From Dyadobacter fermentans DSM 18053 (lineage in GTDB: Bacteria > Bacteroidota > Bacteroidia > Cytophagales > Spirosomataceae): a DNA stretch of 64,000 nucleotides. Both the position numbers and the translations under genes were made by a program. A model generated the notes under the pieces. That model worked only from the letters and a program-made list of their open reading frames with translations, was not told the DNA's origin and searched no databases. The DNA lies in assembly GCF_000023125.1 (NCBI RefSeq), contig NC_013037.1, positions 5,682,501 to 5,746,500 on the forward strand, read 5' to 3'. Shown in pieces: positions 53,354 to 58,392 of this stretch; the stretch's first letter is position 1, and each line of letters opens with the position of its first letter.

Positions 53354-53463
53354 AGGGTTTTTAGGATTTAATTCGTCTTTTTCAAAGGAATATCAACATT
53401 CTGTCGACCTAACATACCATTATTTTTTCGATCTTCCGCCCATAATTGATAACAACCCTAACT

Positions 53464-55779
53464 ATGCGCGTACCTTTCCTTCCTGTCGGTTTACTGTTTT
53501 TATCGACGCTTTTTATTGATAATCAATCCCATGCGCAGAAGGCACCGGTGGACTATGTAGCCACGATGATAGGCACTGCACCGTCGGCAACGGAGAGCGC
53601 CAGGGCGCATAGCGAGGCGGGCAGCGAATTGAAGGGACAGACGATTCCGGCCGTGGGCGTCCCGAACGGGATGACGCAATGGACCCCGCAAACCCGCGCC
53701 ACCGAAACCAAATGCATTGCGCCATTTTATTATAACGACAACCAATTCCAGGGATTCCGCGGCACGCATTGGCTCAATGGCTCCTGCGTGCAGGATTACG
53801 GCTCTGTGACAATCATGCCGCTATCGGGCGAACTCATCACCGATGCGGAAAAACGGGCCAGCGTTTTCAGCCACGATAAAGAACAAAGTTTGCCCGACCA
53901 TTATAGCGTGTGGCTGCCTGATCATCAGGTCAATGCCGAGGTGACCGCCCTTGCGCGCACGGCCATCATGCGTTTCAGGTATGATAGCGGCGAAGAATCA
54001 TTTCTCCTGATCGAGCCCAACAGCGATGAGGGAGAGGGCTTTGTGGAGGTCCTGCGCGAACGTGGCGAGGTGGTGGGCTACAATCCCGTACACCGCATTT
54101 ACCAGGGATCGGGCCAGCCTGCGGGTATTAGCGGTTATTTTGTGATGAAGTTTGATAAAAAAATCATTCAGTCGGGCGTTTGGCTGGGCGATACGATCAC
54201 TCCTATGGGCCGGATACTCACCGGAACCGGAAAACGGGAGAAACTGGGCGCCTATGTGGGCTTTGGCGACGCGAAACAGGTGGTTACCGTGCGTATCGGC
54301 ACGTCGTTCACGAGCATTGAAGGCGCGCGCGCGAACCTTGAAAAAGAAATGGGCGACAAGAGTTTTGAAGTGGTTCAAAAGCTGTCGCGCGATACCTGGA
54401 ATGCATCGCTCGGAAAAGTGAAGGTGAGCGGAAGCGACAATGACAAGGTGCTTTTTTACAGCGCATTATATCGCACAAAACAGTCGCCGAGGCTGCTATC
54501 GGATGTGGATGGGAGCTATCCCTCTTTCGCAGGCGGCACCCCGGTGCAGAAAACCGACGGCTTCGATTACTACTGCGATTTCAGCCTCTGGGATACGTTC
54601 CGCGCCGCCATGCCGCTGGAAATACTGCTCGAACCGAGGACGGCGGGCGATATGGTCCAGTCGCTTGTGAAAAAAGCGGAACAGGGCGGTTGGATGCCCA
54701 TTTTTCCCTGCTGGAACCATTATACGGCGGCTATGGTGGGCGACCACGGCATGTCGGTCGTGGCGGATGCCTATGCCAAAAACATCCGGAACTTCGATGT
54801 GAACAGCGCTTACAATTACCTTCGGAAAAATGCATTTGAAGTAAATACCAATGCGAAAAGCTACGAAGCCGGACAAGGCCGGAGGGCATTGAAATCATAC
54901 CTTCAATATGGCTATGTGCCGTTGGAGGACAGCGTTTGGCAGGCATTCCACAAGCGCGAGCAGGTATCGCGCACACTCGAATACGCGTACGACGATTTCT
55001 GCCTGTCAATCCTCGCGAATGGCCTCAGTAAAAAGGAAGACGCGGCCCAGCTGCGTGAAAGGGCGCTCAATTACCGCCACGTGATCGACCCGTCGACCGG
55101 CTACGCGCGCGGGCGCCATGCGGACAGCCGCTGGATCGGCAATTTCGATCCGTTCGCAAAGCGTGTAAGCTTTATCACAGAGGGCTCGCCGGCGCAGTAC
55201 ACGTGGTTTGTGCCGCAGGACATGGCCGGATTGCAGAAAATAATGGGAGGAAAAGACCGGTTTGTCCAAAAGCTCGACACACTGTTCGACCAGGGGCATT
55301 ACTGGCACGGCAACGAGCCCAACCATCAGATCGCCTATTTGTATGCATTCGCAGGCGAGCCGTGGAAAACCCAGCAATGGACGCGCACGATTATCCGCAA
55401 CGAATACGATAGCAGCGTAGGCGGACTGAGCGGAAATGAGGACGGCGGGCAAATGTCGGCCTGGCTGGCATTCAGCATGATGGGTTTTTACCCGGTTGCA
55501 CCCGGCACGGATCAGTATGTGCTCGGAAGCCCGGTATTCGAGGAAATGTCGGTGGAAACGGGCAAGAACCGGAGGTTTACCGTCACGGCCAAAGGTGTTT
55601 CCGACAATGCACGCTACATTCAGTCGGCTACTTTGAATGGAAAGCCCTTCACGCGTACTTACCTCACGCACGGTGAGTTGCTGAAAGGCGGCAGCCTGGT
55701 GCTTCAAATGGCGGAGGAGCCCAACAAGCAATGGGGCGCACAGGCAACGGACCGGCCATTTTCGCTTTCTAAAAACTGA
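53464..55779 (+). CDS. GH92-family alpha-mannosidase
   Basis: This 771-residue exported glycoside hydrolase belongs to GH92, calcium-dependent exo-alpha-mannosidases acting on N-glycan or yeast-mannan-type linkages. A signal peptide (MRVPFLPVGLLFLSTLFI...SHAQ) precedes the family N-terminal beta domain (VDYVATMIGTAPSATES, GVPNGMTQWTPQT). The (alpha/alpha)6 domain has DYYCDFSLWDTFRAAMPL and the hallmark GNEDGGQMSAWLAF followed by MMGFYPVAPGTDQYVLGSPV. The frame is open from a TTG at 53446; the ATG at 53464 is the better start. No SusCD pair adjoins it, so it is an orphan enzyme. Confidence 0.95.
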   Translation: MRVPFLPVGLLFLSTLFIDNQSHAQKAPVDYVATMIGTAPSATESARAHSEAGSELKGQTIPAVGVPNGMTQWTPQTRATETKCIAPFYYNDNQFQGFRGTHWLNGSCVQDYGSVTIMPLSGELITDAEKRASVFSHDKEQSLPDHYSVWLPDHQVNAEVTALARTAIMRFRYDSGEESFLLIEPNSDEGEGFVEVLRERGEVVGYNPVHRIYQGSGQPAGISGYFVMKFDKKIIQSGVWLGDTITPMGRILTGTGKREKLGAYVGFGDAKQVVTVRIGTSFTSIEGARANLEKEMGDKSFEVVQKLSRDTWNASLGKVKVSGSDNDKVLFYSALYRTKQSPRLLSDVDGSYPSFAGGTPVQKTDGFDYYCDFSLWDTFRAAMPLEILLEPRTAGDMVQSLVKKAEQGGWMPIFPCWNHYTAAMVGDHGMSVVADAYAKNIRNFDVNSAYNYLRKNAFEVNTNAKSYEAGQGRRALKSYLQYGYVPLEDSVWQAFHKREQVSRTLEYAYDDFCLSILANGLSKKEDAAQLRERALNYRHVIDPSTGYARGRHADSRWIGNFDPFAKRVSFITEGSPAQYTWFVPQDMAGLQKIMGGKDRFVQKLDTLFDQGHYWHGNEPNHQIAYLYAFAGEPWKTQQWTRTIIRNEYDSSVGGLSGNEDGGQMSAWLAFSMMGFYPVAPGTDQYVLGSPVFEEMSVETGKNRRFTVTAKGVSDNARYIQSATLNGKPFTRTYLTHGELLKGGSLVLQMAEEPNKQWGAQATDRPFSLSKN

Positions 55780-55921: not shown

Positions 55922-57070
55922 ATGAACCGCAGAAATTTCTTCGAAAAAGCCATCCCGGCAAGCTTCGCGTTAGGCGCAGTAGCAACTTCCTGTGCCCCGA
56001 GGACCGAAATGAGGTATCCCGACAAGCATTTCCACATCGGCAGAGGGTATCACCAGATTCCCAAACTGCGCCTGTCGATGGACCGCATCGTGAAGGAAAC
56101 CGTAGGGTTGCGGCCATTCCGCGCCTCGGGACCGCGGCTTGACGTGGAGCAGCTCGGCAACAAAACGATCGTTCACAACTATGGTCACGGCGGCAGCGGC
56201 TGGTCGCTCTCGTGGGGGACGGGCAACATTGCCCGCAAGAACGTGCTCGCTACGGGCGAGAAGCAAATCGCCGTACTGGGCTGCGGCACGGTGGGCATTG
56301 CCACGGCGCGGCTGTTGCAGGAAAGCGGCTGCGAGGTGACTATCTATACGAAGGACGTGCCGCCCAATGTCACGAGCAACCTCGCTACCGGCACCTGGTC
56401 GCCGGCGTCGCGGGTGTGCGATAAGACAGTAGCGAAGCCCGAATTCCAGGCCATTTGGGAGGATGCCACGCGGTTTTCCTTCCGACGGTTCCAGTTTATG
56501 CTCGGTATGAACGACATTGCCTGCTGGGCCGAAGAATACGGCGTTTTCAGGGAAGCGCCGGTGTACATTCCCGGAGCGGGCGGGGAAGATTTTGAGATAG
56601 AAGGCTTGCTGCCCGAGCGCGTGCGGCTGACTAAAAAAGAACATCCTTTTAAAGCCGATCACGTGACGCGGCGCACGAATATCATGTTCAACATCCCGAC
56701 TTACCTGCGGCACCAGTTGCAGGATTTTACCATGTTTGGCGGGAAAGTAAAGATCCAGGAGATCAAAAAACCGGAAGATATCGACGCATTATCCGAAAAA
56801 GTGGTCGTGAACTGCATGGGGCTGGGCGCCAAGCCGGTTTTCAACGACCAGGAGCTGACGCCCGTGTCAGGCCAGCTTTCCTGCCTTATTCCGCAGGGCG
56901 ATGTGAACTACAAGTTATACACGAAAGGCGCCAACTTCATTTCCCGGAAAGACGGCATTTACATTGGAAGCAACGGGATTGTCGGCAACTGGGACACCAC
57001 GCCGAGCAAGGAACAAACCGAAAAGACCGTCGGGATACTGATGAAACTGATGGAGGAAATGAAGGGGTAA
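55922..57070 (+). CDS. Exported D-amino-acid-oxidase-type flavoprotein with permuted motif order
   Basis: This 382-residue flavoprotein belongs to the DAO superfamily. The N-terminus MNRRNFFEKAIPASFALGAV is Tat-like and ends in a lipobox with Cys24, so it is likely a periplasmic lipoprotein. The order of motifs is odd. GLRPFR (62-67) and HNYGHGGSGWSLSWG (85-99) come first; in D-amino-acid oxidase the matching GFRPVR and HNYGHGGYGLTIHWG lie at the C-terminus. The Rossmann motif (AVLGCGTVGIATARLL, 117-132), normally at residue 1-30, follows. VVVNCMGLGA (294-303) and PVSGQLSCL come next, and the protein ends after GNWDTT, where the standard enzyme has GNWSELNN before its GFRPVR block. This fits a circular permutation. 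The substrate is probably a D-amino or imino acid, unproven. Confidence 0.88.
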   Translation: MNRRNFFEKAIPASFALGAVATSCAPRTEMRYPDKHFHIGRGYHQIPKLRLSMDRIVKETVGLRPFRASGPRLDVEQLGNKTIVHNYGHGGSGWSLSWGTGNIARKNVLATGEKQIAVLGCGTVGIATARLLQESGCEVTIYTKDVPPNVTSNLATGTWSPASRVCDKTVAKPEFQAIWEDATRFSFRRFQFMLGMNDIACWAEEYGVFREAPVYIPGAGGEDFEIEGLLPERVRLTKKEHPFKADHVTRRTNIMFNIPTYLRHQLQDFTMFGGKVKIQEIKKPEDIDALSEKVVVNCMGLGAKPVFNDQELTPVSGQLSCLIPQGDVNYKLYTKGANFISRKDGIYIGSNGIVGNWDTTPSKEQTEKTVGILMKLMEEMKG

Positions 57071-57255: not shown

Positions 57256-57372
57256 ATTGCTTGAATTTGGGTGCAATATACCCGTTTAAAGTAAGCAATG
57301 CCCGCCCGCAAATCAGCTTTAAGCATTAATTTCGGCCAAAATTGCACTGATCATCCCTTGAATGCTTTTGAA

Positions 57373-58392
57373 ATGAAAATAGACCTGCGCAGCGACACCA
57401 TCACCAAACCTACCCGGGAAATGCAGGAAGCCATGTGGGCGGCAGAAGTGGGCGATGATGTTTTCGGCGACGATCCAACCGTGAATGCATTGCAGCAAAA
57501 GGCGGCTCAGCTTTTCGGAATGGAGGATGCGCTTTTCTGCCCTTCCGGCACCATGACCAACCAGCTCGCTATCCGCGTGCACACCCGGCCCGGAAGCGAT
57601 GTGATCTGCGATAAGTATTCGCACATTTATCTGTACGAAGGCGGGGGCATTATGCTCAACGCGTTTTCATCGGTAAAACTTCTCGACGGCGATCGCGGAA
57701 GGCTGAGCGCAAGCCAGGTGACGGAGGCGATCAGTCCGGAACACGATGTGCATTCTACGGTCACGCGGCTCGTTTCGTTGGAAAACACGATGAATAAGGG
57801 CGGCGGCTGCTACTATGATTTCAGCGAGATAAGGGCGATCCGCGATGTTTGTCGCGAGCGGAACATCCCGCTGCATCTGGACGGCGCCCGGCTTTTCAAT
57901 GCATTAGTCGAAACGGGCGAGACGCCCGCACAATACGGCGAAGCGTTCGATAGTATCAGCATTTGCCTTTCCAAAGGTCTGGGATGTCCCGTTGGGTCGT
58001 TGCTCATAGGAACGCGTGCGCTGATCCGCGAAGCACGGCGCTTCCGCAAGGTAATGGGTGGCGGCTGGCGCCAGGCTGGTTTTCTTGCAGCGGCCGGCCT
58101 TTACGCGCTCGATCACCATGTAGGCCGCCTGAAAGAAGATCATAGCCGCGCAAGGTCCGTGGGCGAATGCTTTTCGGCGCGGGCGGAGGTTGCGGAAGTT
58201 TTTCCGGTGGATACCAACATCGTGATCGTAAGGCTTCACGACGACATTTCCGAAAAAGAATACGTCAGCCGCCTGGCCGATGCCGGAATACTGGCTGTCA
58301 CTTTTGGAAAAGGGCTCGTCCGGTTTGTCACGCATCTCGATTTTACCGACGACCACCTCGACATCATGCGGAGCAAAGTGAGAAACCTTTAA
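57373..58392 (+). CDS. Low-specificity L-threonine aldolase
   Basis: This 339-residue PLP enzyme cleaves L-threonine or L-allo-threonine to glycine and acetaldehyde. It starts [20 protein letters not shown], the standard family start; the in-frame ATG at 57298 adds 25 unrelated residues. Key blocks are [61 protein letters not shown] and the PLP-lysine segment [17 protein letters not shown]. The stop overlaps the convergent DUF1398 gene by 4 bp. Confidence 0.94.

Follow-up and report, generated by a model that had tools for sequence, protein, structure and literature searches.

The stretch of DNA analysed here (the window, 64,000 nucleotides of the Dyadobacter fermentans DSM 18053 contig NC_013037.1) carries on its forward strand a gene for a flavoprotein of the D-amino-acid oxidase (DAO) and D-aspartate oxidase (DASPO) family. 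DAO is a classic flavoenzyme whose structure has long been studied. The genome (6.97 Mb, a single contig) holds one match to the protein, in which the Pfam DAO domain scores 75.7 bits against a cut-off of 27.9; the protein shares the core fold of the family as well as its GxRPxR plus HNYGHGG block. In DAO and DASPO this block follows the flavin adenine dinucleotide (FAD) and substrate domains, whereas here it occupies residues 47-112, ahead of the FAD motif at 120. The features of the gene are as follows, with confidence given as the predicted local distance difference test score (pLDDT) and Tat standing for twin-arginine translocation.

55922..57070, forward strand: open reading frame of the permuted DAO-family flavoprotein, 382 amino acids plus stop (translation, Pfam, profile matches, rotation scan)
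55922..55993, forward strand: leader, residues 1-24, with R3 and R4, a hydrophobic stretch and Cys24; predicted Tat lipoprotein leader, by eye
55994..56059, forward strand: linker, residues 25-46, of low confidence (pLDDT <50 for 12-42)
56060..56257, forward strand: C block at the front, residues 47-112, with GLRPFR, HNYGHGG and the closing helix 92-109 (60-row profile; helix and strands of the model)
56105..56122, forward strand: GLRPFR, residues 62-67; its R64 is the counterpart of Arg283 in mammalian DAO, counted along the alignment
56174..56218, forward strand: HNYGHGGSGWSLSWG, residues 85-99 (translation, block profile)
56258..57070, forward strand: former N-terminal part, residues 113-382, comprising the FAD Rossmann fold and the substrate domain, with the last helix at 363-379
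56279..56296, forward strand: GCGTVG, residues 120-125, the FAD dinucleotide-binding motif (translation, Pfam)

The original prediction, made from the letters alone, had read this motif order as the mark of a circular permutation. The translation bears out the order, with both C-block motifs preceding GCGTVG, and on the evidence of sequence and conservation the protein is almost certainly a naturally circularly permuted member of the family. When the single sequence was searched against the PDB, residues 57-104 matched 280-330 of the D-aspartate oxidase 6rkf, and residues 112-369 matched 5-257 of yeast DAO (1c0i). A profile of the front block (residues 47-112 of the window protein and of 59 relatives, 60 sequences in all) was then run against the PDB sequences, where it found 17 distinct entries at E 5.7e-17 to 4.1e-8, each of them a DAO or DASPO matched at its C-terminal block; the next match was unrelated (E 0.13), so that at E <0.1 only DAO and DASPO were hit. 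The counterpart of the block in human DAO is 270-328. Against a profile of 123 classical bacterial DAOs the protein matched in three pieces with their order swapped: residues 52-101 on profile positions 255-302 (i-Evalue 3.6e-13), 114-162 on positions 2-50 (2e-11) and 252-374 on positions 124-248 (9.6e-17).

The same swap was followed by a rotation scan, in which the mature sequence was rotated stepwise and each rotation was globally aligned to 15 classical DAOs. The mean score was 158 in the native order and peaked at 225 with the start at residue 100, while ten shuffled sequences, scanned in coarser steps, gave maxima of only 12-26. Three other permuted relatives behaved alike (best starts 98, 114 and 98); of three classical controls, two scored best unrotated and one at start 312, with 1002 versus 1001 in its native order. 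The alignments fit a single cut at DAO 269-271 and a join, with little lost: residue 379 of the model equals pig DAO 269, residue 51/52 equals human 270/pig 271, and residue 114 of the model equals pig residue 1, the remainder after the front block aligning with DAO from its residue 1. Two segments of the chain are therefore each homologous to the same protein, with their order exchanged. The claim that the chain ends right after GNWDTT, where DAO would run on into GFRPVR, has to be amended: the motif is present at 355-360, but 22 more residues follow it, including the helix 363-379 of the model, and in classical DAO the counterpart of this stretch precedes GFRPVR.

The order is shared widely. 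Among 413 sequences of both kinds, counted with redundancy and classed by profile (sequences from loci without an HNYG-like motif were left out), 275 read C-N-M and 137 N-M-C, with 1 incomplete; none of the 412 classified sequences had two C blocks (i-Evalue <0.01), and a second, C-terminal copy in homologues was not seen. Arg283 and Tyr228, both named in PDB titles, are taken here to be the substrate-binding residues of DAO. Counting along the alignment with pig DAO, R64 corresponds to Arg283 and H85-G99 to 307-321. The R64 position is arginine in 97% of 115 permuted rows (the others have gaps), and H85, Y87, G90, G91 and G93 are kept in all 115, which shows conserved flavin- and carboxylate-binding sequence.

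The front end of the protein reads MNRRNFF...ATSC24. In an alignment of the window protein with 61 homologues R3, R4 and C24 are nearly invariant, and C24 is invariant in an alignment of 21 sequences. Among the proteins listed, with their own predicted starts, a twin arginine lies near the N-terminus in 109 of the 120 permuted ones (the window protein included) versus 0 of the 120 classical ones. The Tat-like part of the leader that had been proposed is borne out by inspection of the motif, but the lipobox is weak, with residues ATS fitting poorly before C24; beyond the Cytophagales group, a lipobox-like cysteine occurs in 20 of 33 relatives. An export leader is supported by these sequences, and in the sampled proteins permutation and exported-type leader go together. 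That one of them made the other possible is speculation.

The distribution of the permuted form was followed in two ways. A scan of species genomes kept the best 80 of 576 relatives, from which no rate is derivable; 79 of these 80 loci are permuted by profile, and the remaining one, L095, by motif position and by later block profiles. In separate draws of genomes, only matches collinear with the permuted profile or protein were counted. Such matches were present in 4 of 395 genomes drawn from the window genome's class and in 28 of 291 from its order (E <1e-50, one of them a broken copy), where 12 of 15 genomes of the same genus had one, its own included. The family of Dyella gave 29 of 147, whereas in its class a match was found in the centre genome only, among 229 drawn. 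In the Acidobacteriota 20 of 247 drawn genomes had a collinear match and 5 more had partial ones, three of the latter labelled N-M-C in the tree. In one Acidobacteria bin (G715, with L178, L200 and L204 and stretches L209, L218 and L219) the permuted profile has four matches. On contig 116 of G464 (L133) a copy is interrupted by eight in-frame stops. Two permuted copies lie in tandem at L063 2507-4975, in a bin labelled Thalassovita (Roseobacteraceae); this sequence nests among Cytophagales-side rows in the tree, and mis-binning or transfer is probable.

A tree of 72 rotated sequences out of 176 clustered rows, built by a quick method, parts 44 permuted from 28 classical rows by a single branch with a support of 96 in the Shimodaira-Hasegawa-like approximate likelihood ratio test (SH-aLRT). 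Where the origin of a permuted row is named, it is one of four phyla: Bacteroidota, Acidobacteriota, Pseudomonadota and Verrucomicrobiota. Because of this one-branch split, a single origin of the permutation is likely, if not proven. The older order would be N-M-C, since in other families of the superfamily the alignment with residues ~112 to 379 starts at the N-terminal end and the C-terminal part stays unaligned. At two loci, L134 and L135 (in G601 and G426), the permuted form has diverged strongly (E 3e-63 and 9e-59), and the genome of L135 is only ~1.2 Mb.

Genes for Rid proteins (imine deaminases) recur near the permuted DAO gene in its relatives. Counted over the stretch taken around each locus, they were present in 26 of 82 loci outside Dyadobacter, where ~1.24 would be expected from the frequency of Rid matches in the host genomes (281 in 273.7 Mb, 47 genomes), the loci not being independent of one another. 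In 16 of the 26 the arrangement is of the divergent kind (one is truncated at the edge of its contig); three Larkinella loci, with the gene directly downstream, two Adhaeribacter loci and one Pelagicoccus locus follow, and the rest are one Opitutaceae, one betaproteobacterium and two Acidobacteriota. At 15 Cytophagales loci outside Dyadobacter the divergent gene lies just upstream and encodes a product of 158-170 residues, all of one cluster, with an apparent signal peptide (by eye); the member of this cluster that was tested has the Rid domain PF01042, and Pfam confirmed the Rid identity in all tested loci (five plus two). Genes near the DAO gene at L088 6514-7836, L095 6568-7932 and L108 3444-4832 encode proteins that look exported and contain two or three Rid stretches.

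Taken as a whole, these data are best explained by a permuted, exported flavoenzyme that oxidises D-amino acids to imines, a reading to which a probability of about 80% may be given. The ancestral chain would have been opened at DAO 269-271, in the loop preceding the strand with the substrate-carboxylate arginine, and its former C-terminal helix connected by a few residues to the former N-terminal FAD strand, leaving a new N-terminus that bears the twin-arginine leader and, in most Bacteroidota relatives, a cysteine. The protein would take up FAD while folding in the cytoplasm and then be exported by Tat, with a lipid tether in Bacteroidota and a location in the cell envelope. There Arg64 and the HNYGHGG block would hold a D-amino acid (or a related amino acid) in position at the flavin, and the resulting imino acid would be hydrolysed by the exported Rid protein encoded nearby in many relatives, yielding keto acid and ammonia. 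Such exported deamination of amino acids is somewhat more likely than not. Peptidoglycan as the source of D-amino acids is a plausible but unproven guess. The fullest version remains tentative and is rather doubted than believed: a single ancient permutation would have founded a separate exported DAO branch, spread over at least four bacterial phyla and deaminating D-amino acids (perhaps derived from peptidoglycan) in the envelope together with an exported Rid, the front C block having provided an N-terminus suited to leader and lipid tether.

Several observations weigh against parts of this reading. The branch leading to the deepest permuted clade (L003, L004 and L134) is 4.1 changes per column long, and the tree program issued a warning about the meeting of long branches. 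In the 18 Dyadobacter loci (17 and the window) the DAO gene has no Rid gene within 8 kb; the twin-arginine Rid of the window genome is found elsewhere, at 3010941, adjoining cytochrome-like and sugar-dehydrogenase-like genes (by eye). According to PMC5619798, Rid2 and Rid3 proteins hydrolyse in vitro the iminoarginine made by D-arginine dehydrogenase, while RidA and Rid1 were without significant activity on that imine, and the neighbours described here are assigned to the Rid family only. When the C block was folded in isolation, the model was weak (pLDDT 70.9, predicted template modelling score (pTM) 0.47) and no structural match was found, and a co-variation test was without power. Finally, the DAO Tyr228 position is Asn338 in the window protein and Tyr in 44%, Ser in 25% and Asn in 23% of the 115 permuted rows, although it is Tyr in all 61 classical rows; the Tyr224 position is Thr in the window protein and likewise in 80% of the classical rows. 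Since the carboxylate anchor and the flavin block are kept and the Tyr228 contact is often lost, the substrate range or chemistry may have shifted. A permuted DAO fold acting on something other than D-amino acids (e.g., glycine, imino acids or amino-sugar acids), or passing electrons to an acceptor other than oxygen, is the most serious alternative, albeit an unlikely one.

The other two alternatives concern the front block itself. It might be an added copy or an unrelated look-alike in front of an ordinary DAO that lacks its C-terminus, and the Pfam match could be read this way: the best DAO stretch (residues 116-377) covers profile positions 2-297 of 353 and leaves the profile end unmatched there, although a second stretch also passes. 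Yet the block profile is specific to the C-termini of DAO and DASPO, no sequence with two C blocks was among the 412 classified, and R64, H85, G90 and G91 show no variation in either the 62-sequence or the 21-sequence alignment, which makes this scarcely credible. Slightly less remote, and still very improbable, is a domain swap in which the block would complete an adjacent subunit's active site. In the AlphaFold2 model of the protein (pLDDT 86.3, pTM 0.83) the closing helix 92-109 is followed, after a link of only about five residues (110-114), by the first FAD strand at 115-119, and confidence in the predicted monomer is high in this region, which argues against a swap. Within the model, residues 51-110 have ten-residue mean pLDDT values of 88-98 and the leader a low one; its structural matches span residues 110-379 and scarcely bear on anything before 110.

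How does the permuted flavoprotein compare with known systems? The solved DAO and DASPO enzymes (6rkf, 1kif, 2du8, 1c0k and 7ct4; Pfam PF01266) are N-M-C, whereas the window protein is C-N-M, has an exported-type leader and belongs to a form in which the Tyr228 position varies. The classical bacterial DAOs (P0122-P0241 and L005-L007), mostly Bacteroidota by their names and thus of the same phylum, have all the blocks, in the order N-M-C in all 123 and with an N-terminal twin arginine in 0 of 120. Glycine oxidase ThiO and sarcosine oxidase score lower, and the front-block profile leaves them unmatched at E up to 10. DauA with Rid2/Rid3 (PMC5619798) resembles the proposed system as a flavoenzyme whose imine is hydrolysed by Rid proteins in vitro; the word "periplasm" is absent from the main text of that paper, whereas many of the neighbouring Rid proteins here have apparent signal peptides by eye. 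The membership in the family had already been assigned by sequence, because the source names of the permuted proteins include "D-amino-acid oxidase". The part that was not found described is the permutation: among the titles listed in searches of open-access PubMed Central (PMC) papers none concerned a permuted DAO, and "permut" is absent from the main text of PMC4699246. A natural permutant with its conserved blocks retained offers a direct test of which connections the DAO fold needs and a scaffold already at hand for the engineering of enzymes and sensors. It also gives a corrected reading for database entries now named "D-amino-acid oxidase" or "FAD-dependent oxidoreductase" and, if the envelope role is true, would add an exported route for removing D-amino acids.

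Other genes adjoin the permuted DAO gene at several loci. At L064 9202-10533 and L069 9300-10622 its neighbour encodes a protein of the class-V aminotransferase fold (Pfam) that has a twin arginine close to its start, and L065, by resemblance of the leader, has such a gene as well; L064 and L065 are Adhaeribacter loci. At the Dyella locus L093 a gene for a beta-lactamase-fold hydrolase adjoins, and L096 and L098 look similar by eye. In the window itself, a GH92 glycosidase gene lies upstream (53446-55779, forward strand) and a threonine-aldolase-like gene (PF01212) downstream (57298-58392, forward strand), and both of these neighbours recur in Dyadobacter loci only.
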